Part shown: positions 1-34,670 of the stretch, one piece after another | Position numbering within the stretch: position 1 is the first letter of the stretch | Layout: each line of letters opens with the position of its first letter | Assembly: GCA_003223975.1 (NCBI GenBank) | Contig: QHXS01000091.1 | Coordinates: 1-41,219 of the forward strand | Origin: Acidobacteriota bacterium | Lineage (GTDB): Bacteria; Acidobacteriota; Blastocatellia; Pyrinomonadales; Pyrinomonadaceae | Length of the DNA: 41,219 bases | Reading direction: 5' to 3' | The notes under the pieces: generated by a model | Seen by the model: only the letters and a program-made list of their open reading frames with translations | Told to the model about the DNA's origin: nothing | Databases searched by the model: none | Position numbers and translations under genes: made by a program

Positions 1-653
1 TACGCGTGCCATAGCAAACCGGTCGCAGGGTCATTGAGATTCTTGTAATAGACCAGCATCTGTTTCACGGCCTCGGCGTCCGTGTATTTGCTGTCGCCGA
101 ACATTTTTCCGTAGCGGACTAGAAACGGCATTCCCATGAACACGCCGTCGGCCCAGAGCTGATACTCGCGGCTTTTTATATTCGCGTGCCAGAAACCACC
201 GTCTTTTGTGCGGGGGTAGGTGTCGAAAACTCTTCTTACGTTGTCGGCGCAAAGTTTGTACTTTTCCTGTTTCGTTTCCTTGTAAAGAATCAAACAGAGA
301 TTCGCCGGCAGCATGTAATCAAGCGCTGTGATCGGGCGGTTGATCGTACCTTTTTCGTCGATATGCAGATCGGTCCAGTCCTTGAGGTGCTGCAAATAGC
401 GAACCTCTTTTGTTCGCAGATAAACAAGATACTGTCCATAAAGATATAGCGATTTTGCATAGCCCCAGCCCTTTAATGATTCCGCAGTCGGGTAACGCTT
501 GATCGTCGATTCGACCACTTCCTTAGACCAGTCGGTCGCCCCAATAGCGGTCGTCGCAACGGCTGCGGCTTTTTTTGTCTGAGCAACAATTCCCTGAGAT
601 CCTGCTATCAACAACAGGCAGATCGTCACGAATTGAAAGAGCCTTTTCGTCAT
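1..653 (-). CDS. Unsaturated rhamnogalacturonyl hydrolase, GH105 (partial, C-terminus off window)
   Basis: The open frame runs from an ATG at 653 off the left edge, so only about 217 N-terminal residues are visible; the ORF track omits it because it has no stop here. It has a Sec-type leader (MTKRLF..., hydrophobic to about residue 20, then VAQ). The helix-rich GH105/YteR pattern follows: WGYAKSLYLYG near 63-73, a D-Y-ML stretch near 112, and the family hallmark LWADGVFMGMP at 166-176, whose Asp169 matches the catalytic Asp of YteR-type enzymes. The family removes the delta-4,5-unsaturated galacturonyl residue from pectin-lyase products. The ATG lies one base after the stop of the upstream fucosidase (TAATATG), which indicates translational coupling within the glycosidase operon. 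The leader suggests periplasmic action. Exact substrate (rhamnogalacturonyl versus galacturonyl) is not decidable. Confidence 0.85.
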   Translation of the reverse strand, partial: MTKRLFQFVTICLLLIAGSQGIVAQTKKAAAVATTAIGATDWSKEVVESTIKRYPTAESLKGWGYAKSLYLYGQYLVYLRTKEVRYLQHLKDWTDLHIDEKGTINRPITALDYMLPANLCLILYKETKQEKYKLCADNVRRVFDTYPRTKDGGFWHANIKSREYQLWADGVFMGMPFLVRYGKMFGDSKYTDAEAVKQMLVYYKNLNDPATGLLWHA

Positions 654-654
654 A

Positions 655-2466
655 TTATTTCGCCGGAACGAGTTTCACAGAAACTAATGTGAGTCCAAGT
701 TTCTTTTCACTACGAATCGAGTCGGGCTTTAGCGAAAGGCTGTATTTGCCGGCTTTATCGATCGTTACGCTGCCTATTTTTGAGATAACATACGGCCAAT
801 AGGGATTTGCCGCCGGCACTTTCTTCCCATTGTTTTCGACCATTCCTTTCAGTTTGTGCCCGGCGACATCGAGAGAGACTTCGTGGCCGCCCTCCCAGTC
901 ACGGCCGTACTTTTGCTCCGAGGTGAGAACCACAACATCGAACGTGCCGGGGTTTGAGACCTTGAATTCCCAATCGACCCATTCGTCTTTATTCAGCCAT
1001 CGCTCGGCAACGCCGCGGCTGTCGAAACGCAGACCAGTCTCACCCGTCGCGTGAACATTAGAAAGAAATGCGGGAAGCGTAATGCTTTGGTCCGGCTGCT
1101 GAAGTAGGGTGGTGTCGGCGACGACATCGCCACCAGTTTCAAGAACGATGACGGAGTCGTTCTTGTCAGGCGCCGCAGCAGGCACTTTGACAGAGATCGA
1201 ATAATGGTCCTTAGCCGGATCATCCATTTGGGTGAATTTCAGCTTCGTTTTGCCGGACAAAAGATAGGCATTTTTGACCCTGCTCTTTAGCCCGTAAAGG
1301 ATGAGCTCTTTCTGCGGCCACTCAAACACATGCAGATAGATCTTGCCGGGCTTTGTTGTAATAATTCCCCACGGCAATTCATACGGAAAAGGACTCGGGC
1401 CGGTGCCATATACGGCCTGGCTGTTGACCTTGATCCATCTCCCTACCTCAGTTAGTCGATCCACGATCGGCTGTGGGACCGTGCCTTCGGCGGTCGGACC
1501 GATATTCAAGAGGTAATTGCCGCCCCGGCTGGCCACCTGAACCATCTGGCGTATCAGGATCGATGTCGGTTTCCAGTTTGTGTCGTCCCTTTTAAAGCCC
1601 CAGGTGTCATTCATCGTCACAGGTGTTTCCCAGTCGCGCCGTACCTTGCCGACGCTGATCTGGTTGTCGCCTGCCGAGTCGTAGTCCCCCACCCCGTTGC
1701 CGACGCGCCCGCTGACCAAACAGTCCGGCTGGATGGAATGCACGAGGTCGACGAGCTCCTGACTTTGAGCTTTGGTCATATTTCGAGGCGTATCGAACCA
1801 TATCAAACCGATCGGCCCATAATCCGTGAGTATCTCGCGCACCTGCGGCTTGACCTTTTCCTCGAGGTATTTAGCGAAATCCTTTTTGCTTTCATCCTTA
1901 AAATCCCAATCGTTGCCGACAGCGTCCGGCTCGTGCCAATCCTGCGTTTGCGAATAATAGAAACAGAGCTTGATGCCGGCCTTTTGCGCGGCGGCGGCAA
2001 GTTCTTTTAACGGGTCGCGTTTGAATGGTGTTGCGTCGACAATGTTGAATTTACTCACCTTCGAGTGATACATCGCAAAGCCGTCGTGATGCTTAGACGT
2101 GATGACGATGTATTTCATCCCGGCATTCTTTGCCAGGCTGACGATCTCTTCAGCGTCAAACTTTACAGGGTTGAATTGCGGAGCAAGCTGCTCATATTCC
2201 GCCACAGGGATCTTCGCCCGGTTCATTATCCATTCGCCGAGGCCGGGAATGAGCTTTCCCCTCCATTCACCTGCGGGAACTGCATACAGTCCCCAATGTA
2301 TGAACATCCCGAACCGGGCCTCGCGAAACCAACGAAGACGCTTTTCCTTAAGCTCGTCGGCCAACGTCGATCGGGTCTTGACGGGGTCTATATTCTGAGC
2401 CCCTACAACAGCGGCGATAAACGCAAGGCTAATAAGAATGGCGGCGAGTATTCGACTTAACCTCAT
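655..2466 (-). CDS. Alpha-L-fucosidase, GH29, secreted
   Basis: About 603 aa. I choose the ATG at 2466 (MRLSRIL...) over the track's 2484 because it begins a normal Sec signal peptide (cut near VVGAQ) and has GTGAGAGA just upstream; the 2484 start would lie inside the preceding gene's end. GH29 landmarks are clear: RWFREARFGMFIHWGLYAVP, then ITSKHHDGFAMY, then FYYSQTQDWHEPD, and GLIWFDTP, whose Asp (about D225) sits where the GH29 nucleophile is found. After the TIM barrel there is a beta-rich C-terminal region with a 'DWEFKVSNPGTFDVVV' style carbohydrate-binding-like module. It would release terminal alpha-L-fucose, a side-chain sugar of rhamnogalacturonan and xyloglucan. It is third in a four-gene glycosidase run. 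Some GH29 members have other alpha-L specificities. Confidence 0.9.
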   Translation of the reverse strand: MRLSRILAAILISLAFIAAVVGAQNIDPVKTRSTLADELKEKRLRWFREARFGMFIHWGLYAVPAGEWRGKLIPGLGEWIMNRAKIPVAEYEQLAPQFNPVKFDAEEIVSLAKNAGMKYIVITSKHHDGFAMYHSKVSKFNIVDATPFKRDPLKELAAAAQKAGIKLCFYYSQTQDWHEPDAVGNDWDFKDESKKDFAKYLEEKVKPQVREILTDYGPIGLIWFDTPRNMTKAQSQELVDLVHSIQPDCLVSGRVGNGVGDYDSAGDNQISVGKVRRDWETPVTMNDTWGFKRDDTNWKPTSILIRQMVQVASRGGNYLLNIGPTAEGTVPQPIVDRLTEVGRWIKVNSQAVYGTGPSPFPYELPWGIITTKPGKIYLHVFEWPQKELILYGLKSRVKNAYLLSGKTKLKFTQMDDPAKDHYSISVKVPAAAPDKNDSVIVLETGGDVVADTTLLQQPDQSITLPAFLSNVHATGETGLRFDSRGVAERWLNKDEWVDWEFKVSNPGTFDVVVLTSEQKYGRDWEGGHEVSLDVAGHKLKGMVENNGKKVPAANPYWPYVISKIGSVTIDKAGKYSLSLKPDSIRSEKKLGLTLVSVKLVPAK

Positions 2467-2474
2467 AGTGTCTC

Positions 2475-4322
2475 TCACTTGCATACCAGCACTTTTGCCG
2501 AATGAGCAGGCAGTTCCTTAATCAAGAATGTACCTCTGTGCGTGCCAAGATCTTCGCCGCTCCAGAAGTTGTTGATCTGAGTTGATCGCGGTAGATGAAT
2601 CGAGAATGTTTGCGGAGCCTCCTCCCAATTAAAAACACAAACCGTCCTGACGCCGTTACGCTCGATGTTCCCGACCCTAAACGAATCGTCTGCGAAAGTT
2701 GCTGCAACTGGCTGTGGCGGCAAAAGTTTTTTTAACATCGCCAGCCGCTCTCCGGATATTTTTGTTAGATCGTCGCCCGAGAGGATCATGCCGCCTGATG
2801 CATATATCGCCGTCGCGTGAAACTCGAACTCATTGTCCGGCAACTCGCCCATCAGGCAGACGGCGTCGGGGTCGTTCCACCATAGGCGGCCGTTCTGCCA
2901 GTTTCGGTTGAGGTTTTGAAGGGCCGTAGATCTCACGCGGTCCCATGTCCGCTTGATGTCGTTCGAGCTGCGCGAGCCATGGATAAGGCCCATCGACGCC
3001 CAAATAGGATGATTGCAGCCGAGAATGAATGCATCGCCCGCGCCTTTTATAACGGACCGCATCCCACGTCGATAACCCTCGATACGTGTGGCTTGCGGAT
3101 CGTAAAATCGCCCGCCGTGCATCGCCCCCCAAAAATTTGCATCGAGCTTGAAATAGGTTACGCCCCATTCGTTTCGCATTGTGCCAAAAACCGTTTCGAG
3201 GTGTTTTTGCGCCGCGGGGTGCGTGCCGTCGAGCGCGTACCAGCCTCCTTTTTCCTTTATCGAACGCCAACCGCCGAACGTTACCCGGTCCGAACGCAGC
3301 GGCTTGCCCGCAACGTCTTTAATAAACCAATCAGGGTGCTCGTTGAACAAAGTCGAGCTTTCCTCGGCGATAAACGGTGCGACCCAGATCGCGGGCTGAA
3401 ACCCACGCTCGCGAATTTTCTTCAGCACGCCTTGGACATTTCCGCCAAAGGCATTTCCGGTTTCAAGCCAGTCGCCCATCGCAGGCTGATATCCATCGTC
3501 GACCTGTATGTACTTAAGATTCGGTTCGTTTTTGGCAATGAAATCAAGATTGTCGAGCACTTGTTGCGCCGTAACGCGCGGACCGAAACAGTACCACGAG
3601 CACCAGCCGGCAGGCGGAGCAGGAGATCGCAGGGGCGGATGATTTACCGCAAGACGACCCGCTAAACTGTCAAGCAACTTGCCGCGATCTTTGCCGGCCG
3701 TGTATGTGAATTCTTCCAGATCCCACGATTCGCCGGGTCTCAACTCCTGGCTTTCTGTATCCAGAACGGCCTGAAGCGAGCCATCACCAAGATAGAACCC
3801 GCCGTTAAATCGTCGACAGGATGTAAACGCGAGGAGATCGTGATTTCCATCGTCCGAGGCCAGGGCCATCATCCCATAAAACGCCCGGGCATCAGCCGGG
3901 ATCGGCATCTTGTAATGCTTTGCATCGGTGTAAGAGCCGAGGTCCTTCGGATTCCCAATCGTGCCGCCGGTTTGACTCAGCATTTGAAATCCCTCGCCGT
4001 AGAGACGTGTCTGATCCGGTATCGAATGCGGAATATCAAAGAGTACGATCTCTTTTACCTTCACGCTCTGGCTGCCGGTGTTTGCGATCCTGGAACGACA
4101 AAATGAGCCTCGCCACTCACGGATCACGCGCAAGTTGTCGATAGGGCGAGCCTCATCGCTGGGAATAATTTTGAAAGGGGATTCAAGAAAAACTCGTTGA
4201 TTAAGCTTGGTGACGCGGGTTTGAGCGCCGCTAAATGCAGGCAGCACTGCAGCGGCAAGCGGCGAAACTAGTGTGAGGCGGAGCAGATCGCGCCGCGTGA
4301 TCAATTCTGGCTTGTGATGCAT
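2475..4322 (-). CDS. Alpha-galactosidase-like glycoside hydrolase, GH36/melibiase type, Tat signal
   Basis: 615 aa. The N-terminus carries a twin-arginine-like leader (TRRDLLRLTL) followed by a hydrophobic stretch ending SGAQ, so export through Tat is likely. A beta-sandwich N-domain leads to the GH36/clan-D barrel: GWCSWYCFG at 239-247, the QVDDGYQ motif near 273-279, AIWVAPF near 311-317, and YFKLDANFWG, where Asp394 fits the nucleophile. NDPD at 483-486 fits the region of the acid/base. The family hydrolyses terminal alpha-galactosides. GAGAGAGC directly precedes the ATG, and the gene begins 27 bases after the upstream fucosidase. The bacterial melibiase group is wide and some members act on other alpha-linked sugars, so substrate is inferred from family only. 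Confidence 0.82.
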   Translation of the reverse strand: MHHKPELITRRDLLRLTLVSPLAAAVLPAFSGAQTRVTKLNQRVFLESPFKIIPSDEARPIDNLRVIREWRGSFCRSRIANTGSQSVKVKEIVLFDIPHSIPDQTRLYGEGFQMLSQTGGTIGNPKDLGSYTDAKHYKMPIPADARAFYGMMALASDDGNHDLLAFTSCRRFNGGFYLGDGSLQAVLDTESQELRPGESWDLEEFTYTAGKDRGKLLDSLAGRLAVNHPPLRSPAPPAGWCSWYCFGPRVTAQQVLDNLDFIAKNEPNLKYIQVDDGYQPAMGDWLETGNAFGGNVQGVLKKIRERGFQPAIWVAPFIAEESSTLFNEHPDWFIKDVAGKPLRSDRVTFGGWRSIKEKGGWYALDGTHPAAQKHLETVFGTMRNEWGVTYFKLDANFWGAMHGGRFYDPQATRIEGYRRGMRSVIKGAGDAFILGCNHPIWASMGLIHGSRSSNDIKRTWDRVRSTALQNLNRNWQNGRLWWNDPDAVCLMGELPDNEFEFHATAIYASGGMILSGDDLTKISGERLAMLKKLLPPQPVAATFADDSFRVGNIERNGVRTVCVFNWEEAPQTFSIHLPRSTQINNFWSGEDLGTHRGTFLIKELPAHSAKVLVCK

Positions 4323-4349: not shown

Positions 4350-5690
4350 TCAGACCTGTCCGCGCTCACGTTTGCGGACAAATATGTTGTCCTGAGTCGG
4401 CACCGATTCACATTCGATCGCAATTGTAGTTATCGGCGAATCGGGAGCCTTTTCGGGCAGGCCGGTGAATCTGATCCCGTATGTGTCTTGCGTGAAATCC
4501 ACCTTCTGCCCTGTTGCTAAAAGTCTCGCGGATCTAGCCTTGGTCATTAAACCGGCAAACGCGACGGAGCTGCCCGGATAATAATGGATGTGGAAATATA
4601 GCGTGGTGCCCTTTCGCGAAAAGCTTCCATTCCGAGAACGTGTTAGCTGGCATTTGTCCGAACCGTATATAGCATCGCCGTTACGACTCATCCAGTCGCC
4701 AACCTTTGTAAAGATCTCGATCGATTCGGGCGGAATCGAACCGTCCGCGAGTGGGCCAATATTAAGAAGGTAGTTGCCCTCGTCGCGGGCACATGTGATC
4801 AGATTCCTGACAACTTGTTTGGGCGTTTTCCATGCGTCGTCGGCGCGATGAAATCCCCAGCTATCGTTCAGAGTCATGCACGTTTCCCATGCGCGACCGG
4901 CTTCGGCCGCTTCAATGCGCTGTTCAGGCGTCGAAAAATCGCCGGGCAGTTTATTTCGATTATTTACGATGATGTCCGGCTGCAGACCGAACACCATCTT
5001 GTTCATTTTCTCGGATTCCCAACCTTTTACATCGAGCGGCCACGAAACGTCGTACCAGAGAATATCGATCTTGCCGTAATTCGTCATCAGTTCGCGGATG
5101 TGCGTATGTATGTAATCGACAAACCGGCGTCTGGCCCCTTCGTCATCAGCGCAGCGGGCTCCGTCCGGATGATGCCAATCCATCAAGGAATAATAAAAAC
5201 CGACGCGCAAACCTTCGGCCCGGGCCGCTTCGACGTATTCCTTTACAAGATCGCGTCCGGCCGCCTGTTTTGGAGCGCAGAAATTGGTAGTTGATGTATT
5301 GAAATGGCAAAAGCCCTCATGATGCTTAGTCGTCATCACCATATACTTCTGCCCGGTACGCTTTGCAAGCCGCGCCCAATCGCGCGCAAAGTTCGGCTTT
5401 GGTTTGAACTGAGCTGCGAGCTTCTCGTATTCCTGGGCCGGGATGGCTTCCATTTCCTGGACCCATTCGTGCCGCCCGAGGACGCTGTAAAGCCCCCAGT
5501 GAATGAACATCCCGAACTTCGCCTCGTGCCACCATTTCATCCGGCGCGCACGGTCGAATTTGACCTCGGCGCTTTCGTCCGCCGTATTATTCTGCGGATT
5601 CTGCCCGGACACGATAGATATCCCTGTCGCGGCCACCGCCGCACCCGCACCAATGATCTTTAAACAGTCCCGTCTTGATAAATCGCTCAT
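4350..5690 (-). CDS. Alpha-L-fucosidase, GH29, Tat signal (second copy)
   Basis: 446 aa. It opens with a Tat-type leader (SRRDCLK, then an Ala/Gly-rich hydrophobic run to VSGQ). GH29 motifs are MKWWHEAKFGMFIHWGLYSV at 51-70, MTTKHHEGFCHF near 119-130, FYYSLMDWHHPDG near 165-177, and IDILWYDVSWP with Asp214 at the nucleophile position. It is shorter than the neighbouring fucosidase because it lacks that protein's extra C-terminal module. The two copies differ clearly in leader and catalytic flanks, which suggests different linkage specificities rather than a recent duplication. It is the first glycosidase after the receptor gene, 128 bases downstream of it, with a stem-loop in that gap. Confidence 0.9.
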   Translation of the reverse strand: MSDLSRRDCLKIIGAGAAVAATGISIVSGQNPQNNTADESAEVKFDRARRMKWWHEAKFGMFIHWGLYSVLGRHEWVQEMEAIPAQEYEKLAAQFKPKPNFARDWARLAKRTGQKYMVMTTKHHEGFCHFNTSTTNFCAPKQAAGRDLVKEYVEAARAEGLRVGFYYSLMDWHHPDGARCADDEGARRRFVDYIHTHIRELMTNYGKIDILWYDVSWPLDVKGWESEKMNKMVFGLQPDIIVNNRNKLPGDFSTPEQRIEAAEAGRAWETCMTLNDSWGFHRADDAWKTPKQVVRNLITCARDEGNYLLNIGPLADGSIPPESIEIFTKVGDWMSRNGDAIYGSDKCQLTRSRNGSFSRKGTTLYFHIHYYPGSSVAFAGLMTKARSARLLATGQKVDFTQDTYGIRFTGLPEKAPDSPITTIAIECESVPTQDNIFVRKRERGQV

Positions 5691-5818: not shown

Positions 5819-8800
5819 CTAGAAATTTAACCTGATCGACGCCTGCATCACGCGTGGTGATCGGGCGCTGTTTGGTGTTCCAAAAGCATTATTGGTCTGG
5901 CGAACTACGGCAGTACATACATTGGTTGTCGTGCACGCCGCGCCCGTGCCGCCGGGATTGACCTGAGCAACGGCAAATGTCATTACACCGTTAATGTCTC
6001 TGAAATTCGTGGTATTGAATACGTTATACGTTTCCCACCGGAGCTGAATAGCCCTATTCTCGCCGATTCGAAAATTCTTGAAGACAGCCAGATCGGTATT
6101 AAATATGGAGGGCAATCGTATAGTATTTCTCCCGAGGTTGCCGATGTCGCCAACGGCCGTCGGAACAGTAAAGCAGTCGCGGTTGATTACATACGCCGTT
6201 CCGGTGGTATCCGACCCGGTGGCACCGACGTTCGGATCGCACGTAACGACAGGGCGGGCGTTTACGGTTCCTCCGGTGAAATCCGTGATCATCGTACAAA
6301 CTGTCGCAGATGTCTGGCTTGTACCCGGCGGACAAGTTTGCCCGGCGGTGATCGTCGCAGTTCCCGCATTGTAAGTCCAAGTAAGGCCAGATCCCGAAGG
6401 GCCATTACCAAAGATCTTTGGTCGGCCGGACGCATATGATGTAGTGCCGGAGATCTGCCAGCCATCGAAAACGGTCCTGACAAAACCGTTGTCCCAAATC
6501 TTGCTGAGCTTAGGCAGATCCCAGATGTAGTTAACGGTCAAGATGTGCGGTTGGTCGAAATCGGCGGGTCCGTAATTGAACGCATTGTACGGACGCGGAA
6601 AGAAAACATCGGACGAGTCGTCATTAGCGCGATCCTGCGTTTTCGAATAGGTGTAGGCGATCCCGTACTGGAAGGATCTCGTGTAGCGACGATTGACCTG
6701 CACCTGCAGGCCGTCATATCTGGAATTGCCGCCCCATGTGATCATGTTAATGTTGCCATAACCTCTGTATGGCCGTAAGAAATCATCGCCCAAACGCGAT
6801 CCGGTAACCGGATCGATATTATTGGTACCCAGCTTTGCACCATCAGGTATGCCGTTTATGTTTCGCAGCTCACCGAGATACCGGCTGCGTGACCCGACGT
6901 AGCTAACCTCGACCAAGGTATCAAAACCTATATCTTGCTGGAACCCTATGGAGAAGTTATAAGTTACAGGCGTATGGGAGTTCAGCTCAACCGCATTTAG
7001 CGCAGTTGGCCGGAATAAAGCCGTACCGCTGAGATTAGCAAGTTGGTCAATGTTGCCAAAGTCTATGCTGACGGTTCGCGTAGCGGGTGGGTTATTAACC
7101 AAATTTCCGCCCGTCGTACCGCCGCCTATCCGGGGTGCGTGATACATACCGCCCATTCCACGGATCACTGTTTTGCCGGAGCCCAGGATATCCCACGCGA
7201 AACCGAGGCGCGGTTCTATGTCAACCGCTCTGGTGATTCTAAAGCCACGCGGAGTGCTAGGATCCGAATTTAACATTAGTCCGTTTGTTGGATTTCCAGA
7301 TCCCGGAACGATCGCACCGACAAGACCTGAATTGGTCCCGGTTAACGGAAACAGTTGACCGGTAATCGGATCCCGAGCGCGTCTCTGCGCGGCCGGACAG
7401 GTCGCCGGGGGTGTAAACGCGACGGCGCACGCACTTTCGTAGAGAGCCACCGCATGGGCGGGGTCAAACAGATCCGGAACGAAATTAGATCCCTGCTCGT
7501 CCACTTGGAAGAACGGTGTGTGATGGCCAAAGCGGACACCGTAGTTGAGAGTAAACTTCCTGCTAATCTTCCACTGATCTTGCGCGTACCATTGAAAAAG
7601 CCTGATCTCCAGATTGGTAAACGGACGAGCGGACGATTCCTGATAATTTCGGAAGCTGCCGACCAATGCATTTGAGTAGGCATAGCCCGTGTTCCCGAGG
7701 GCAGCGGTATACGCGGACTCATCACCGCGGAAGTTAAACACCCCCGACCACTGACCCCCGGGTGCTTCGCTATTTCGAATACGCTCAAAAAATACTCCAA
7801 ACTTTAAGGTATGGTTTCCTTGGGTGTAACTAAAATTGTCTGCGAAGGATGGCTTGATATAATCGCTGGCCACCTCCCCCCAACGATCCAACCAATTAAT
7901 ATTGGCTGGGTTGACGCCACGTACGCCATTCCAACCGGTCGCTCTCGGTACAGTGCCAAGAGTATTGTTTTCGGGGAAGAGTTGAGGCGCGGTATAGCCG
8001 AGGGCACTTCTTTGCAACCCTTCCACCATTCCATCTGAAGGAACAAAACCTTCCGAATCGTGTCGCATTCCGAAATTAAATTCATTAACCATCGAAGAAC
8101 CGAAAATGTGTACCCAGTTAGCTGACCAGCCGTCATCCTTATACAAATAGTGTGAATTGATACCCCAGCGGTTGTTGTCACCGCCCGGCCATCCGGAGGT
8201 GCCAGTTCCTTCATTGTCCGATGTCCACTTCTGCATCTTCCATGAAATGCGGTCCTTATTCGTCGGTGTAAAATCGAAACGCAGCAGAAGACTTCGTTTC
8301 GGGACGTCCGCGGGGCTCTGTGTAACGTAATTAAAGCTTGTGGATCCTGACGTATTTGGCAGCGGGAAGTACTTGAGCAGCGCCGCTCCATTGGGATTAA
8401 TACGCGACGCAGGAATAATATTGATGCCCTGCGGGTTCGCTGCCGTGCCCCGTGAAGGATCTCTAAAACACGCGGTTTGATCCGATGCATTACAGTTCCC
8501 GGAAAGGATAAGAGGATCACGAACAAAAACTTGTGCGTTTGAAGAGTTTATTGACTGTGTGAAATCACCGGAACGTTCCAATGCGGTCGGCACCGTGACA
8601 AACCGCGGGTCCTGTGGCGTTATCGAGTGAGGTTTCTCATAGGAGAAGAAGAAGAACGCCTTGTCTTTTGTAAAAAAGTCACCGCCTTCGCCAAATCGTG
8701 GGAGCCACATCGGCCCGCCAAAGTTGCCGCCCCAGATATTGTGCCGGTACAAGGGTCTTTTCACGTTAGTCTTATTAAAGATGTGATTGTTTGCATTCAG

Positions 8801-9601
8801 TGCTTCGTTTCGCAAAAAGTAATAGGCGGTGCCCCTATAATCTTTTCCGCCGCCTTTGGTAACGACATTAATTATGGCGCCGCCGTTATTGCCGTATTCC
8901 GCAGAGTAGTTGTTTCGTAATACCTGGACTTCACCGACCGCGTCCTGATTTACCGACATGCTTACCTTGTTCGAACCGCTCGGCTCGCTGGCGGTCAACC
9001 CGTCGATCGACGTTGTGGTGGTGCGTCCGCGTTGGCCGGAGATATTTGGCAAGTCGGTGCCGAAGCCTTCGCCCACGGCCTCAATATCATCATTATTTGA
9101 GGTTCCAGGTAACAGACGAAGCAATGAGGTGAAATCACGCCCTTTCGTGGAGATCAAGGCTATCTGGTCGGAGGTCAGTCGAGCCGTAAGATCGCTGCTC
9201 GTCGTCTCAACTAACTGGCCCGAGCTGGTTACCGTGACGGTTTCGCTCACGTTTCCGGCGGTCAAGGCGATATCGCCGAGAGTCAGATTTTCGTTCGCGC
9301 TTAAAACCGTATTGGTCCGCTGCAGAGTTTGGAACCCTTGATTTTCGATCTTGACCGTATACGTGCCCGGTTGGACCGTTGTAAACGTAAACCGGCCTTC
9401 CGTGTTGCTGACAGCCGATCGGGAGCTTCCGATCTGGTCGCTGATCAGCGTAACCGATGCTCCTGCGATCAATCCGCCGTTCGAATCGGTTACCGTGCCG
9501 GAAATAGTGCCGGTATTCTGTCCGAATACCGAAAGTGCCAGGATCGGGACTATAAAAAATGCACCGATGATCTTAATACCGAACGAATTGAAGGTTGACA
9601 T
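5819..9601 (-). CDS. TonB-dependent receptor with carboxypeptidase-regulatory-like N-terminal domain (Oar-like)
   Basis: 1260 aa. The track start (9619) should be moved to the ATG at 9601: the six codons before it read ATGCTTAGGAGGATTTCA, so they contain a perfect AGGAGG six bases upstream of ATGTCAACC. A signal peptide (to FGQN) is followed by a CarboxypepD_reg-like domain (GTISGTVTDSNGGLIAGASV ... PGTYTV, about residues 30-105), a TonB plug-like segment (SDQIALISTKGRDFTSLLRLLPG, about 140-260), and a long beta-barrel ending in the outer-membrane consensus QASIRLNF with terminal Phe. Large receptors of this type are expanded in Acidobacteriota. The position between a sugar ABC transporter and glycosidases suggests uptake of pectin-derived oligosaccharides, a SusC-like role, though no SusD partner is adjacent. 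Confidence 0.9.
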   Translation of the reverse strand: MSTFNSFGIKIIGAFFIVPILALSVFGQNTGTISGTVTDSNGGLIAGASVTLISDQIGSSRSAVSNTEGRFTFTTVQPGTYTVKIENQGFQTLQRTNTVLSANENLTLGDIALTAGNVSETVTVTSSGQLVETTSSDLTARLTSDQIALISTKGRDFTSLLRLLPGTSNNDDIEAVGEGFGTDLPNISGQRGRTTTTSIDGLTASEPSGSNKVSMSVNQDAVGEVQVLRNNYSAEYGNNGGAIINVVTKGGGKDYRGTAYYFLRNEALNANNHIFNKTNVKRPLYRHNIWGGNFGGPMWLPRFGEGGDFFTKDKAFFFFSYEKPHSITPQDPRFVTVPTALERSGDFTQSINSSNAQVFVRDPLILSGNCNASDQTACFRDPSRGTAANPQGINIIPASRINPNGAALLKYFPLPNTSGSTSFNYVTQSPADVPKRSLLLRFDFTPTNKDRISWKMQKWTSDNEGTGTSGWPGGDNNRWGINSHYLYKDDGWSANWVHIFGSSMVNEFNFGMRHDSEGFVPSDGMVEGLQRSALGYTAPQLFPENNTLGTVPRATGWNGVRGVNPANINWLDRWGEVASDYIKPSFADNFSYTQGNHTLKFGVFFERIRNSEAPGGQWSGVFNFRGDESAYTAALGNTGYAYSNALVGSFRNYQESSARPFTNLEIRLFQWYAQDQWKISRKFTLNYGVRFGHHTPFFQVDEQGSNFVPDLFDPAHAVALYESACAVAFTPPATCPAAQRRARDPITGQLFPLTGTNSGLVGAIVPGSGNPTNGLMLNSDPSTPRGFRITRAVDIEPRLGFAWDILGSGKTVIRGMGGMYHAPRIGGGTTGGNLVNNPPATRTVSIDFGNIDQLANLSGTALFRPTALNAVELNSHTPVTYNFSIGFQQDIGFDTLVEVSYVGSRSRYLGELRNINGIPDGAKLGTNNIDPVTGSRLGDDFLRPYRGYGNINMITWGGNSRYDGLQVQVNRRYTRSFQYGIAYTYSKTQDRANDDSSDVFFPRPYNAFNYGPADFDQPHILTVNYIWDLPKLSKIWDNGFVRTVFDGWQISGTTSYASGRPKIFGNGPSGSGLTWTYNAGTATITAGQTCPPGTSQTSATVCTMITDFTGGTVNARPVVTCDPNVGATGSDTTGTAYVINRDCFTVPTAVGDIGNLGRNTIRLPSIFNTDLAVFKNFRIGENRAIQLRWETYNVFNTTNFRDINGVMTFAVAQVNPGGTGAACTTTNVCTAVVRQTNNAFGTPNSARSPRVMQASIRLNF

Positions 9602-9773
9602 TGAAATCCTCCTAAGCATAACGAAAAGTGCTCCTCAAAAGGGCGCCAACTAAGGCAGGTTTGGCGCGATAAATGGTTTGTCAAGGTCACGGCGACACGC
9701 CGCCGCTTTCATGTAGATAACGATTTGCCAAAAAAGACCGAGTCAAATATCTTTCAACTATCTAAGCTTCATT

Positions 9774-9790
9774 AATTGGTATAACCAATT
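9774..9790. promoter_or_regulatory. GntR/FadR-type operator palindrome
   Basis: AATTGGT-ATA-ACCAATT is a perfect 7+3+7 palindrome about 170 bases upstream of the receptor start. It matches the general GntR/FadR-subfamily operator form (TGGTnnnACCA core, as for PdhR-type sites). No GntR gene lies in this window, so the regulator must be encoded elsewhere. Confidence 0.6.
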
Positions 9791-9937
9791 TTCTAAGGCA
9801 ACTAATCGCTGCTAAACCTGTCCGATATCAACTGTCAATGAAGCTCCAATTGAAACGAATGTCTGATCTCTTTCAAGCCGAGCAAGGCTGATATTGCATG
9901 CCCTTTTTAAAGATCGGCGATGGGAATCTATAAATAT

Positions 9938-9951
9938 TGTTACCGATAACA
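9938..9951. promoter_or_regulatory. LacI-family operator 1 upstream of receptor
   Basis: TGTTACCGATAACA is a near-palindrome (TGTTA/TAACA arms, CG at the centre), typical of LacI-family operators. The same word recurs 23 bases away and, with variation, at the lacI/GH28 divergent promoter in this window. Confidence 0.7.
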
Positions 9952-9960
9952 AAAAATTAG

Positions 9961-9974
9961 TTTTACCGATAACA
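9961..9974. promoter_or_regulatory. LacI-family operator 2 upstream of receptor
   Basis: TTTTACCGATAACA matches operator 1 at 13 of 14 positions. Centre-to-centre spacing is 23 bp, about two helical turns, which favours binding on one DNA face. A TTGACA hexamer on the minus strand (9989-9994) lies just upstream, so bound repressor would cover the core promoter region of a receptor transcript with a leader of about 350 nt. Confidence 0.68.
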
Positions 9975-10047
9975 TTTTTTTAATATCTTGTCAATCGAAA
10001 AAGTTTGGATTGGTAAATTTCGGCAAAAGCGGTGACCGTCGAATCGA

Positions 10048-11040
10048 TCAGGTTCGTCGCTGTCGCAGTTGGTCAACTGCGACAGCAGCAACAATAATAG
10101 CCCCGATGATTATCTCCTGAACATAATTAGGCCATCCCATCTGCTGGCAGCCGTTACGCAAAAACGCCATTATCATCGCACCGATCATAGTGCCAAGGAT
10201 GGCCCCTTGCCCGCCGCTCAGACTGCCGCCGCCAATGACCACCGCCGCAATAATATCAAGCTCGGCCCCGGCCGCCACGGTCGGATCACCCTGTCGAAGC
10301 CGCGACATCTGCATCACGCCCGACAGGCCGAAGAAGAGTCCGCCCAACGAGTAGATCCAGATCCGAAGCCTTTTCGTTGGAATACCGCACGCGCGGGCCG
10401 CCTCCTCATTCGACCCGATGGCAAAAACCCTTCGGCCGAAGATCGTGTTACGCAAAACGACTACCATTAAGACGGCGAGAAAGATCGCGATCCAGACTCC
10501 AGGAGCCAACAACAGCCACGGTGGATTCGGAAATGTGACGACAAGATCGTTGATCCAAGTTTGCGAAACATTAACCGGCTGTTGATCGGCCAGCCATTTT
10601 GCGACGCCGCGTACAACCCCGAGCATTCCCAGGGTAGCGATGAATGGAACAACGCGTAGCCCAGTGATGACAAATCCGTTTGCAAGTCCGACGATCGCGC
10701 CGGCCATGATCCCGGCGAAGACGGCGACAACGGGTTCGAACCCGGCGTTCACGGTAAGCGCTGTAACGACGCTAGACAAGGCGATTGTCGAGCCGACCGA
10801 GAGGTCGATGCCGCCGCTAATGATAATGATCGTCATGCCGATCGCGCTCACCGCGACAATAACAGTTTGCGAAAGCACGACCCTGATATTAAAAGGTGAG
10901 AGATATTTTTCAGGGCTTCCGGTTAAAATGGAAAAGGCTAATATGACGAGCGCAAGTCCAAGGAACGGGCCGAGGAGGGTTATCCACGTCCGCATAATGC
11001 CGGAGATCGTCTTCGCGGATGTCGATATATGGGTATCCAT
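10048..11040 (-). CDS. Sugar ABC transporter permease, CUT2 (RbsC-like)
   Basis: 330 aa, the usual length for RbsC/AraH-type permeases. It is strongly hydrophobic with about eight to ten predicted membrane spans, and carries the family's conserved stretches: MTIIIISGGIDLSVGSTIALSS, GLANGFVITGLRVVPFIATLGM, IGSNEEAARACGI (the cytoplasmic EAA-like loop) and DIIAAVVIGGGSLSGGQG. CUT2 permeases import monosaccharides such as ribose, xylose or rhamnose. The ATG lies 12 bases after the ATPase stop. Only one permease gene is seen; it presumably acts as a homodimer, as RbsC does. The substrate is unknown, but the pectin context suggests a pectin-derived monosaccharide. Confidence 0.88.
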   Translation of the reverse strand: MDTHISTSAKTISGIMRTWITLLGPFLGLALVILAFSILTGSPEKYLSPFNIRVVLSQTVIVAVSAIGMTIIIISGGIDLSVGSTIALSSVVTALTVNAGFEPVVAVFAGIMAGAIVGLANGFVITGLRVVPFIATLGMLGVVRGVAKWLADQQPVNVSQTWINDLVVTFPNPPWLLLAPGVWIAIFLAVLMVVVLRNTIFGRRVFAIGSNEEAARACGIPTKRLRIWIYSLGGLFFGLSGVMQMSRLRQGDPTVAAGAELDIIAAVVIGGGSLSGGQGAILGTMIGAMIMAFLRNGCQQMGWPNYVQEIIIGAIIVAAVAVDQLRQRRT

Positions 11041-11052
11041 CGATGGGACAGT

Positions 11053-12546
11053 CTAATTGCTGCCGATGGCTTCCTGAAGAACAGATTCAGGCGTCCATTC
11101 GGAGATCTTACGGGTACGCGATAGCCGGCCGCGGCTCATAACTGCCAAGCGATCGCACATCCCAAAAAGTTCTGGAAGATACGAGCTTATCATCAAGACC
11201 GCTTTGCCACCGGCTGCGCACCGAGCGATCGCTTCGTAGACCTGTGCCTTGCTGACGATGTCAATGCCTCGCGTCGGCTCATCGAGAAGCAGTACTTCTG
11301 CATTCTGATGGATCAATCGAGCGACGGCGACCTTTTGCTGGTTTCCACCCGATAGTTCTTTCAGAGGTTGGGCGGGCCCGGCGGCCTTTATTCCTACTTG
11401 GGCGATCATTTCCTCAGACCGCCTTCTCTGCTTTGAAAGGTCGAGCCACCCAAAACGAGAACATGACGACCATCGCGTGATCGTAATGTTGTCGGCGACC
11501 GAGAGGCTAAGAGCGAGGCCCTCCCGTTTTCGATCTTCGCTTAAGTAGCCGATGCCCTGTGAAATTCGAGATGCTGGCGTTCCGCACGTGGCTTGTGATT
11601 CGTTGCCCCGAACCGTGACCGTGCCGGACGCGGCATCTACAAGCCTGAAAATTGCCCGCACCATATCGCTCCGGCCGGATCCCATCAAACCCGCAATACC
11701 CAGGATCTCTCCGCGTCGCAACTCAAGATTTGCTGACCTAAGAGCTGGCGGCGACGAGAGATCCTTGACCTTTAGCACAGTCTCGCGCTCCTCATTGATC
11801 GTTCGCTTCGGAAACAGGTTCTTGACCGTTCGGCCTACCATATGTGAGACCAAGAATTGATCCGAAACCTCGCCGATCTTGCCTTGGGCAACGCTCTTTC
11901 CATCGCGCAAAACGGTAAAATTGTCTGCGATCTCGCGGATCTCCTCAAGAAAATGGCTGATATAAATAATGCTCGCGCCGTCGGCCTTGAGGCTTCGTAT
12001 CAAACCAAAAAGACGTTCGACGTCATGCCGTTGAAGGCTGCTGGTCGGTTCGTCCATAAGGAGGATTCGCGAATTCGAGGCAACGGCCCGACAGATCTCA
12101 ATTACCTGCTGAGCTGCGATTGAAAGTTCACCGATCGTAGCTTCCGGGCGAATATCCGGGTGGTCAAAATTTTCAAGCACTGAACGCGCCCGTTTGTGCA
12201 ACGCCTTTTTATCGAACCAACCGAAACGGAAATTCTCGATTCCCATCAAGATATTTTCTGCTACGGAGAGATGAGGTGCGAGCATCAATTCCTGATGGAT
12301 TAGCGAGATCCCGCATCGGCGAGCGTCGAGAGAATCGACGGGACTATATGGCATTCGCCCGAGCTCCATCGACCCTCCGTCCGGCCTGAACGCTCCGTGA
12401 AGTATGTTCATCAGCGTGCTCTTGCCCGCGCCGTTTTCTCCGATAAGCGCATGAACCTCGCCCTCATGCAAGTCAAGGTCTATGCCGTCGAGAGCAACAG
12501 TAGGGCCAAAGTGTTTGACTATTTCACGAAGCTGCAGGATCGGCAT
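11053..12546 (-). CDS. Sugar ABC transporter ATP-binding protein, CUT2 (RbsA-like)
   Basis: 497 aa. I place the start at ATG 12546 (MPILQLREIVKHFG), the usual N-terminus of this family; the track's longer version would begin within lacI. Two tandem ATPase domains are visible: the first with Walker A GENGAGKST, Walker B LLMDEPTS and a switch His in YISH; the second with a degenerate P-loop (GLMGSGRSD), full signature LSGGNQQKVAVARLI and LLLDEPTRGID. That asymmetry is normal for RbsA/MglA/XylG. It is co-directional with lacI (25-base gap) and the permease. No periplasmic binding protein gene is found next to it, which is unusual for a CUT2 operon. Confidence 0.9.
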   Translation of the reverse strand: MPILQLREIVKHFGPTVALDGIDLDLHEGEVHALIGENGAGKSTLMNILHGAFRPDGGSMELGRMPYSPVDSLDARRCGISLIHQELMLAPHLSVAENILMGIENFRFGWFDKKALHKRARSVLENFDHPDIRPEATIGELSIAAQQVIEICRAVASNSRILLMDEPTSSLQRHDVERLFGLIRSLKADGASIIYISHFLEEIREIADNFTVLRDGKSVAQGKIGEVSDQFLVSHMVGRTVKNLFPKRTINEERETVLKVKDLSSPPALRSANLELRRGEILGIAGLMGSGRSDMVRAIFRLVDAASGTVTVRGNESQATCGTPASRISQGIGYLSEDRKREGLALSLSVADNITITRWSSCSRFGWLDLSKQRRRSEEMIAQVGIKAAGPAQPLKELSGGNQQKVAVARLIHQNAEVLLLDEPTRGIDIVSKAQVYEAIARCAAGGKAVLMISSYLPELFGMCDRLAVMSRGRLSRTRKISEWTPESVLQEAIGSN

Positions 12547-12571
12547 GTCTCGTCCGCGTCGACGAAGTTTA

Positions 12572-13624
12572 TTAGTTTTTCTGCGGTGAAAGCTGACTGG
12601 CGACCACAATCGAACTGGTCATTGCGCCGCACGAACTCCGCACTACTAGGCTTGGTGACAGAATCATCTTCTGATGCGTGATATCGTGTCCGTTCCCTTC
12701 GATTAATTGTATGAGCAATCGAACCGCCGCCTGTCCCATTTCGCCTCGAGACCAGGAAACAGTCGTCAACGGGACCCTAAGCATATCCCCGTAATGAATA
12801 TTACCTCCGCCGACCATTGCAATATCCTTGCCGACAACAATGTCGGCTTCATGAAGAGCCTGCATCGCCCCGATGGCCGCTGGATCATTCACGGCGAAGA
12901 TAGCTGTTGGAAGATCACCTCCTTCGATCCATGCTTGCATTGCCCGATAACCATCAGTTTCCATCAGCCCACACTCGCGGACCAACGCTTCATTGTAATT
13001 TATGTCATTTGCCGATAAAGCCTTCCTGTATCCTTCCAGCCGTTTCTTACTGGTTGATGTGATGGTCCCGCGCAGGTGACCGATCCTGCGGTGCCCAAGC
13101 CGAATCAGATGTTCGGTCGCAAGCATTCCCACCTCGACATCGTCCGTCAAGACCATAGGACAATCTAATCCGTCAAGAGTACGGTCGATGAGAACGATCT
13201 TCGTTCCGTCTTCGATCATGTCGGCATACAAGCCCGCTTTCGACGCCGGCGCGCACGGTGCGATGATCAGTCCATCCGTGCGAGACCGCAATGCTTCGAC
13301 CTCGCTGAGTTCGCGAGCGACGTATTCTTCCGAGTTGCCGATCACGATCTGATATTTAGCGGAACGTGCAACGGCGCCGATCCCGTGAAGGATCTCGGCA
13401 AAGTAAGAGTGCATTAGGTCCGGCACGATCACGCCGATCAAATAAGAGCGGTTGGTGGCCAGTGCCCGGGCGAAATGATTTGGTTGATAGTTTAGCCGGC
13501 GGGATACCTCAAGCACGCGATCGCGGGTCTTTGCCTTAACCAACGGGTCGTTATTTATGGCGCGCGAAACGGTCATCTTTGAAAGACCAAGCTCACGTGC
13601 TATGTCGGCAAGGGTTGCGCCCAT
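12572..13624 (-). CDS. LacI-family transcriptional regulator of the pectin locus
   Basis: 350 aa. The N-terminal helix-turn-helix is textbook LacI: TLADIARELGLSKMTVSRAINND (about 4-26) and the hinge motif NYQPNHFARAL (about 50-60). A periplasmic-binding-like effector domain follows (SYLIGVIVPDLMHSYFAEIL, LIDRTLDGLDCPMV, GHLRGT, AIFAVNDPAAIGAMQAL). It heads the lacI-ABC operon and is divergent from GH28. Operator-like near-palindromes overlap its own promoter and lie upstream of the receptor, so autoregulation and control of the locus are likely. The inducer is probably a sugar released by these enzymes (inference). Confidence 0.9.
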   Translation of the reverse strand: MGATLADIARELGLSKMTVSRAINNDPLVKAKTRDRVLEVSRRLNYQPNHFARALATNRSYLIGVIVPDLMHSYFAEILHGIGAVARSAKYQIVIGNSEEYVARELSEVEALRSRTDGLIIAPCAPASKAGLYADMIEDGTKIVLIDRTLDGLDCPMVLTDDVEVGMLATEHLIRLGHRRIGHLRGTITSTSKKRLEGYRKALSANDINYNEALVRECGLMETDGYRAMQAWIEGGDLPTAIFAVNDPAAIGAMQALHEADIVVGKDIAMVGGGNIHYGDMLRVPLTTVSWSRGEMGQAAVRLLIQLIEGNGHDITHQKMILSPSLVVRSSCGAMTSSIVVASQLSPQKN

Positions 13625-13634
13625 GAATACACTA

Positions 13635-13648
13635 TGTTACCGGTATAA
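13635..13648. promoter_or_regulatory. LacI-family operator at the lacI promoter
   Basis: TGTTACCGGTATAA contains the core TTACCGGTA and resembles the sites at 9938 and 9961. It lies 10 bases upstream of the lacI ATG and overlaps a minus-strand TATTAT (-10-like, 13645-13650), which fits autorepression. A weaker relative (AAGTAACGATATCC, 13661-13674) lies between this and the next site. Confidence 0.6.
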
Positions 13649-13703
13649 TAGATTTCAATCAAGTAACGATATCCACTGCCGGAATTCAGTGTGATAAATA
13701 TAG

Positions 13704-13717
13704 TTTTAACGGTAACA
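13704..13717. promoter_or_regulatory. LacI-family operator at the GH28 promoter
   Basis: TTTTAACGGTAACA carries one good TAACA arm and the central CGG of the other sites. It lies about 58 bases upstream of the GH28 start codon, directly after a TATAGT -10-like hexamer (13699-13704), where bound repressor would block transcription. Confidence 0.58.
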
Positions 13718-13774: not shown

Positions 13775-15463
13775 ATGAAAATAAGATCAAGAACTCTGCC
13801 CGTAAGCCTATTACTGGCAGTATTAACAGTCTCGGGCTGGCCGCAAGATCCTAACAAAGTGGCATCGTCGAAGGATCGCCTAGCCGCTCCTCCCTCTGCC
13901 GTCTTTACCAATTCATTTGACGTCCGCGTATTTGGCGCCAAGGGCGATGGCAAGGCTCTCGACTCACCGGCCATCAACCAGGCAATAGAGACCGCTGCAG
14001 CGAAAGGCGGCGGTACGGTTTTCTTTCCCCCCGGGACGTATCGCAGCTTTTCGATCCGGCTGAAAAGCAACATTACGCTGTATTTTGATCAGGGTTCAAC
14101 CTTGCTGGCGGCCAGCCCAAACGACGGCGATGGAAAATACGATGAGCCTGAGCCCAATCCGTGGAGTAAGTATCAGGATTTCGGTCATACGCATTGGCAC
14201 AACAGCCTCATCTGGGGTGAGAACCTCGAGAACGTTTCGATCCTTGGACCGGGACTTATTTGGGGCAAAGGGCTTGTACGAAGCGGAGGACAATCGCGAA
14301 ACCAGGCACAAAATGACGCCCTTCAGGACGTTAAGACGGTTACACCGGAAACGCCCTTTGGTTATCCGAACCCGCGCGATACGGTCGAAACGGGTTGGGG
14401 GAATAAGGCGATAAGCCTCAAACTCTGCCGCAATGTGATAATCCGTGACGTTTCCATTTTAGAGGGCGGTCATTTTGCGATCCTCGCAACCGGTGTCGAC
14501 AATCTTACGATCGACAATCTCAAGATCGACACAAACCGTGACGGGATCGACATAGATGCCTGTAGACATGTACGGATTTCGAATACGACAGTCAATTCAC
14601 CATTCGATGATGCGATATGTCTGAAAAGCTCGCATGGGTTGGGCTTTGCGCGGGCGACCGAGAATGTGACTATCACTAATTGTTCCGTCAGCGGTTATGA
14701 CGTTGGGACTTTTTTGGACGGCACATACAAACGCGAATACAACCGATACAGCCACAGTAGTCCGACCGGGAGGATAAAGTTCGGCACGGAATCGAATGGT
14801 GGTTTCAAGAATATAACGATTAGCAATTGTGTTTTTGATTATTCGCGCGGCCTCGCTCTTGAAACCGTGGACGGCGGGTTGCTCGAGGATGTCACGATCA
14901 GCAATATAACGATGCGTGACGTTGTGAATGCCCCTATTTTCCTTCGCCTTGGCAAGCGAAACCGTGGCCCGAAAGAAACGTTGACGGAGGGTAAGCTGCG
15001 CCGCGTGATGCTGAGCAATTTTGTGATTTACAACGCCGACCCGAAATACGGCTCGATCATCAGCGGCGTTCCGGGCAACGACATCGAAGATGTGCGATTT
15101 AACAACATTCGCATTTATTACCAGGGCGGCGGCACAAAGGAACAGGCAGCTCTCCAGCCGCCGGAAAAGGAGATCGACTATCCGGAGCCTGTCATGTTTG
15201 GCGAGATTCCTGCGTATGGATTTTTCATACGCCACGTAAAAGGCTTGACAATGACCGACGTCGAGGTCAGTTATATGAAGGACGATCTGCGGCCTCCGTT
15301 CATGCTCGATGATGTAAAAGGCGCCGATTTTCATCGGGTGAGGGCACAACGGATGCCGAACGGCTCCATGTTCGTTTTGAAGAACGTTTTCGATTTCACT
15401 ACAAATCAATGTTGGCTTTTGCCTGATCTTCAGCTCGCAAAAGTAGACCGAAGAAATCTTTAG
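13775..15463 (+). CDS. Glycoside hydrolase family 28 (polygalacturonase/rhamnogalacturonase-like), secreted
   Basis: 562 aa. The true start is ATG 13775, with AGGAGAG five bases upstream; the track's 13691 start would put an operator inside the gene. A signal peptide (MKIRSRTLPV..., to about residue 22) precedes a right-handed beta-helix. The pectate-lyase-3-like opening FDVRVFGAKGDGK is at 48-60. GH28 catalytic landmarks are NRDGID at 254-259 and the DDAICLKS box at 278-285, followed by a GRIKFGTES segment matching the family's R-I-K substrate motif. Successive IxNxTI/ITNCS turns are typical of the coil. The family hydrolyses galacturonan or rhamnogalacturonan backbones; endo or exo action cannot be read from sequence alone. 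It is divergent from lacI and shares its operator region. Confidence 0.88.
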   Translation: MKIRSRTLPVSLLLAVLTVSGWPQDPNKVASSKDRLAAPPSAVFTNSFDVRVFGAKGDGKALDSPAINQAIETAAAKGGGTVFFPPGTYRSFSIRLKSNITLYFDQGSTLLAASPNDGDGKYDEPEPNPWSKYQDFGHTHWHNSLIWGENLENVSILGPGLIWGKGLVRSGGQSRNQAQNDALQDVKTVTPETPFGYPNPRDTVETGWGNKAISLKLCRNVIIRDVSILEGGHFAILATGVDNLTIDNLKIDTNRDGIDIDACRHVRISNTTVNSPFDDAICLKSSHGLGFARATENVTITNCSVSGYDVGTFLDGTYKREYNRYSHSSPTGRIKFGTESNGGFKNITISNCVFDYSRGLALETVDGGLLEDVTISNITMRDVVNAPIFLRLGKRNRGPKETLTEGKLRRVMLSNFVIYNADPKYGSIISGVPGNDIEDVRFNNIRIYYQGGGTKEQAALQPPEKEIDYPEPVMFGEIPAYGFFIRHVKGLTMTDVEVSYMKDDLRPPFMLDDVKGADFHRVRAQRMPNGSMFVLKNVFDFTTNQCWLLPDLQLAKVDRRNL

Positions 15464-34567: not shown

Positions 34568-34670
34568 AATAAAAGGCGAGAGTCGAGACCGATTTTACCG
34601 AGAAGAACCTCCGGGTGCAAGCCGCTTTATATGCACGAATTCATGGACTACAAACTCGTCGATCTCATCG

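Follow-up and report, generated by a model that had tools for sequence, protein, structure and literature searches.

The stretch of DNA analysed here (41 kb; hereafter the window) belongs to the 3.66 Mb genome of an Acidobacteriota soil bacterium and holds a gene cluster for pectin-sugar use. Its genes, in the order in which they lie, and four operator-like sites, given without strand, are the following.

3..653, minus strand: GH88/GH105-type glycosidase, truncated by the contig end (PF07470, 139 bits)
655..2484, minus strand: alpha-L-fucosidase, GH29 (PF01120)
2475..4322, minus strand: GH36/melibiase-like glycosidase (PF02065, weak)
4350..5690, minus strand: alpha-L-fucosidase, GH29 (PF01120)
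5819..9601, minus strand: TonB-dependent receptor with carboxypeptidase-regulatory, plug and OMP_b-brl_4 domains (profile search, sequence)
9938..9951: predicted operator O2, TGTTACCGATAACA, receptor-proximal member of a tandem pair in gene direction; kept in relatives and equal to the E. coli gntK-upstream site
9961..9974: predicted operator O1, TTTTACCGATAACA, upstream member of the pair (sequence, relatives)
10048..11040, minus strand: CUT2-type sugar ABC permease (PF02653; AraH/RbsC-like below cut-offs)
11053..12546, minus strand: CUT2-type sugar ABC transporter ATPase (PF00005 twice; AraG/XylG/RbsA-like below cut-offs)
12572..13624, minus strand: lacI-family regulator, 350 aa, with an SKMTVSRA recognition stretch (PF00356 and PF13377, sequence)
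13635..13648: predicted lacI operator, TGTTACCGGTATAA, placed 10 bp upstream of the lacI start codon; missing from most relatives
13704..13717: predicted GH28 operator, TTTTAACGGTAACA, placed 57 bp upstream of the GH28 start codon; missing from most relatives
13775..15463, plus strand: GH28 rhamnogalacturonidase, BT4146 type (PF00295; NF049898, 742.8 bits against a cut-off of 500)

The lacI product combines an N-terminal LacI HTH (PF00356, 57.3 bits; cut-off 27) with a periplasmic-binding-protein-like sensor domain (PF13377, 115.9 bits; cut-off 26.5), the architecture of the LacI family. From the junction sequences, the likely ATG of the ATPase gene is at 12546, 25 bp past lacI, and 12 bp separate ATPase and permease; the ATPase likely shares the lacI operon. 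The receptor start was chosen at 9601, after AGGAGG, and the adjacent GH29 gene (4350..5690), whose orthologues adjoin the receptor in four relatives (L076, L077, L078 and L088), likely belongs to the receptor transcription unit. Transcribed divergently from lacI, the GH28 gene exceeds the curated cut-off of the BT4146 rhamnogalacturonidase family NF049898; the name pectinase given to it in the initial annotation is therefore correct in kind, and rhamnogalacturonan enzyme is more exact. The receptor leader (9602-9937) spans about 330 bp; its sequence beyond the operator/promoter block is unconserved in relatives, and no known RNA element was found in it, tRNAs being the only RNAs detected in the window.

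All four sites are intergenic, CG-centred near-palindromes. Compared with the even palindrome TGTTACCGGTAACA, those at 9938, 9961, 13635 and 13704 match at 13, 12, 12 and 12 of 14 bases, respectively, and no other place in the remainder of the window exceeds 11/14. They thus share the properties by which LacI-family operators are recognized, namely an even palindrome, a central CG and an intergenic position near a promoter (PMC4052901). The coordinates given for these sites in the initial annotation are exact, and their number is far above chance: against a background derived from genome-wide matches to a reversed control pattern, about 0.013 sites are expected in the 3.8 kb locus and 4 are observed (Poisson ~1e-9, or ~2e-5 when the whole window is taken), a statistic with some circularity where the four sites themselves supply the consensus; E. 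coli GntR yields the same consensus independently. O1 and O2 lie 23 bp apart, start to start. The pair does stand upstream of the receptor, as had been noted, but its position is beyond the permease 3' end (10048), some 340-370 bp before 9601. Elsewhere in the window, a weak motif-like site, TTTTACCGAGAAGA (34593-34606), lies 26 bp before a GH1/GH42-like gene with GH43 adjoining; it matches at 10/14 bases by eye, under the threshold, and was not retained as an operator.

LacI-family proteins owe their specificity for two bases per half-site to two residues in the recognition helix (PMC2978694). The window regulator (..SKMTVSRA..) has Lys-Met at these residues (K17 and M18 in LacI numbering), and E. 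coli GntR (..TKMTVSRF..) has the identical two. A published GntR site is ATGTTACCGATAACAG (PMC10450161), and in E. coli the sequence TGTTATCGGTAACA upstream of gntK reproduces the 9938 site exactly in reverse complement. Among the three LacI proteins of the genome, only the window regulator is Lys-Met, the other two being Ala-Met and Thr-Ala. There appear to be good grounds for assigning the four sites to the window regulator, because both Lys-Met and the 9938 site are as in E. coli GntR and because the other LacI proteins of the genome differ at these residues, the Ala-Met protein having a different palindrome. Here, the pairing of Lys-Met with the motif is taken from the E. coli comparison in place of an entry in a published recognition table; it would follow from known families, as would binding by a LacI-type dimer. 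The likeness to GntR, with its gntT and gntK operators, comprises membership of the LacI family, Lys-Met, an operator that is the same over 14 bases and several sites per promoter. Whole-protein similarity, however, is at family level only, the gluconate repressor model NF011563 giving 83.5 bits against a cut-off of 433, and the genes predicted to be controlled here serve plant polysaccharide use, not gluconate. The protein is thus of the same DNA specificity type but a different regulator. The pairing of Lys-Met with TACCGGTA, a known LacI recognition rule, appears to be valid in the little-studied Acidobacteriota too.

Of 162 genomes from the class, 18 have an orthologue of the regulator (56-66% identity); the window genome is among the 18, but none of its congeners is. 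Six relatives (L075, L076, L077, L078, L079 and L088) have the motif as a tandem pair in the interval between the regulator and an orthologous receptor. When receptors were taken across the class and pairs counted at 18-28 bp spacing, the pair was present upstream of 10 of 17 receptor orthologues, the window included (9/16 without it), and of none of nine paralogues (Fisher p 0.004, or 0.008 with the window left out); shuffled upstreams gave no pair. Some records double as L075-L089 and as whole-genome loci; these counts refer to whole-genome loci only. Every genome with a receptor pair (10/10) holds the orthologous regulator, as do about half of those whose receptor orthologue is without the pair. 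Six of the 17 upstreams are without any site, and three of those six genomes carry the regulator. This conservation of the pair is a direct observation, as are the sites, the genes and their order. The sites between lacI and GH28 are absent from L075 and L076, despite the presence there of GH28 divergent from lacI; in L078, a single strong site (13/14) separates lacI from a GH2 gene, and in L079 one lies upstream of GH95. Sister-clade regulators (L080-L089) share the Lys-Met helix, and no such site adjoins their own genes; some sister-clade genomes carry the site elsewhere, at the receptor (L129, L130). The sequence AAACGAGCGCTCGTTT (L080/L081), considered as an operator for the sister clade, was rejected, being inside a ROK gene in L081.

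In relatives, the receptor pair coincides with recognizable promoter elements. A TTGTTA or TTGATA hexamer lies within O2, with a TATAAT-like hexamer about 17 bp later, in L077, L121, L124, L128 and L136, and L135 has TACAAT in place of the latter. A second set, L129-L132 and L143, has TTGACA or a closely similar hexamer immediately ahead of O1, and the TATA-like hexamer downstream of O1 falls between the operators where both exist. The loci L121, L124, L128 and L136 on the one hand and L129-L132 on the other retain the pair, but differ in the promoter register inside it. Read on the minus strand, O2 of the window (TTGTTATCGGTAACA) overlaps a possible -35 (TTGTTA). A simple promoter scan found no match to a consensus promoter at the window pair; we infer that the receptor promoter here most resembles the O2/TTGTTA set, with a poorer -10. 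The pair overlays the core promoter in relatives and would therefore act by steric repression, probably cooperatively. A spacing of 22 bp is the peak for cooperative LacI operator pairs (PMC4052901); the 21-26 bp observed among relatives fits this preference, so far as known families can be a guide to cooperative spacing. RafR and ScrR likewise use obligate tandem operators about two helical turns apart (21-22 bp; PMC4052901), although in the Acidobacteriota relatives the spacing ranges from 21 to 26 bp.

The motif had been proposed as a guide to further members of the regulon, an expectation not borne out by a search of the whole genome (3.66 Mb) with sequence patterns allowing mismatches. 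With up to two mismatches, TGTTACCGGTAACA gave 17 matches, of which four are the locus sites and 13 lie elsewhere; the reversed control also gave 13. The looser core pattern KTTANCGNTAAM showed no enrichment genome-wide (25 matches against 21 for the control). Because matches outside the locus equal those of the control, this pattern search identified no further regulon member. Matches with one mismatch on contigs C42 and C140 were discarded as they lie within reading frames. A strong match, CGTTATCGGTAAAA (G000:C215:7722-7735), was set aside as probably due to chance: it is intergenic, its neighbours are the PAP2 and DUF559 genes, and sugar genes are absent from its surroundings.

The CUT2 importer is represented in the window by a double-domain ATPase and a BPD_transp_2 permease; no periplasmic binding protein was found among the window genes scanned. 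A candidate binding protein is encoded on contig C260 (G000:C260:8195-9166; L110): a relative of the sister-clade binding protein (63% identity), it adjoins the second LacI, and genes for GH3, dehydratase and SDR proteins are present there as well. Because this matching binding protein stands beside the second LacI, the importer may be split over two loci and two regulators. The second LacI is the Ala-Met protein, and the perfect palindrome TGTTAACGTTAACA just before its coding frame (L110:11493-11506) is likely its autoregulatory site. In the regulator tree, the sister clade has 98/98 support, and its regulators neighbour genes for a mandelate racemase-type acid-sugar dehydratase, LUD proteins and CUT2 transporters, together with a didehydro-deoxyrhamnonate hydrolase-like gene (below cut-off). 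Such a neighbourhood resembles that of a non-phosphorylative deoxyhexose pathway and makes L-rhamnose, L-fucose or one of their derivatives the likeliest guess for the effector.

From these sequence comparisons, the window very probably holds a local pectin-sugar cluster under its own LacI-family repressor, acting through paired and single predicted operators. The cluster would serve the use of rhamnogalacturonan or a fucose-bearing side chain, with one LacI-family repressor encoded within it. When no sugar is present, repressor dimers would occupy both members of the tandem pair at the receptor promoter, probably next to each other and with cooperativity, as well as the single operators at the divergent lacI and GH28 promoters; overlap of bound repressor with core promoter elements would block RNA polymerase. 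A sugar would act as effector and release the repressor; an L-deoxyhexose (L-rhamnose or L-fucose) or a compound closely derived from it is the most likely candidate. This release would then induce three units: receptor-GH29-GH36-GH29-GH88/105, lacI-ATPase-permease, and GH28. Repression rather than activation, the extent of the transcription units, the placement of the promoters and the nature of the effector are what we infer in this scheme. The initial annotation had one regulator controlling the receptor, the GH28 enzyme, the transporter and itself. Conservation of the receptor pair together with the regulator supports this for the receptor, but the lacI/GH28 sites are mostly unconserved. 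Since L075 and L076 are without these sites, GH28 control and autoregulation are plausible yet lineage-specific, the window genome and one related case (L078) being their basis. No operator belongs to the transporter itself, which would come under control only through its position downstream of lacI in the operon.

The uneven conservation also gives room for a narrower reading, in which the receptor pair is the sole real target, the two sites between lacI and GH28 being weaker or of recent origin and possibly used by the second LacI as well. Such sharing would accord with the resemblance of TGTTAACGTTAACA, which stands in perfect form upstream of the Ala-Met gene on C260, to one half of the 13704 site (a TTAAC-type half). 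However, the 13635 and 13704 sites each match at 12/14 bases and lie at two promoters facing each other, the lacI/GH2 intergenic region of L078 holds its 13/14 site, and TTAACG-type halves are found too in pairs belonging to Lys-Met regulators (L129). We regard this narrower reading as unlikely.

Less probable still is binding of the sites by another transcription factor, or a regulator that activates instead of repressing. Some LacI-family proteins do activate, but the agreement of motif and recognition residues and the co-occurrence of pair and regulator argue for the encoded protein, and in relatives the sites overlap the -35, spacer or -10, which is a repressing position. As for a chance cluster of AT-rich palindromes, the control-level frequency of matches outside the locus counts in its favour; the four sites in 3.8 kb and the phylogenetic footprint speak against it so strongly, the conservation of the receptor pair refuting it for that pair, that its probability is close to nil. 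Control by the cluster's own repressor is the preferred reading.

The locus appears to be a real, local and conserved regulatory unit, which the initial annotation read correctly in outline. As a gene switch it is well made, but it is ordinary and its kind is already known. In Xanthomonas and Caulobacter, carbohydrate utilisation loci place TonB-dependent receptors and sugar-use genes under LacI repressors. The locus described here resembles them in bringing a TonB-dependent receptor, sugar-use genes and a LacI-type regulator together, but its receptor is of the OMP_b-brl_4 kind and a CUT2 ABC pair lies in the regulator's operon. RhiR, RhmR and actinobacterial RhaR, which regulate rhamnogalacturonide or rhamnose use, are also LacI repressors accompanied by transporter and glycosidase genes, in their case for rhamnose-containing oligosaccharides (PMC3870299); they belong to other phyla and are likened to the present system by locus content, and the same paper makes no mention of Acidobacteria or TonB receptors. 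Acidobacteriota have many TonB receptors, and for most of these neither substrate nor regulator is known. The regulator-operator pair, backed by conservation, would connect one receptor family with the use of rhamnogalacturonan or fucose, and it makes the effector testable. More tentatively, and with somewhat less than even confidence, an undescribed GntR-type (Lys-Met) regulon may exist in Acidobacteriota, in which the tandem pair is fixed at one TonB-dependent receptor while promoter register, enzymes and regulator neighbourhood vary by clade; in one clade, the regulator would have moved into a deoxyhexose catabolic operon and would act on the receptor from a distance. Pyrinomonas methylaliphatogenes K22 has the regulator, and its receptor upstream region (L136:4689-4823) carries a third site in addition to the pair, 100 bp away from it.
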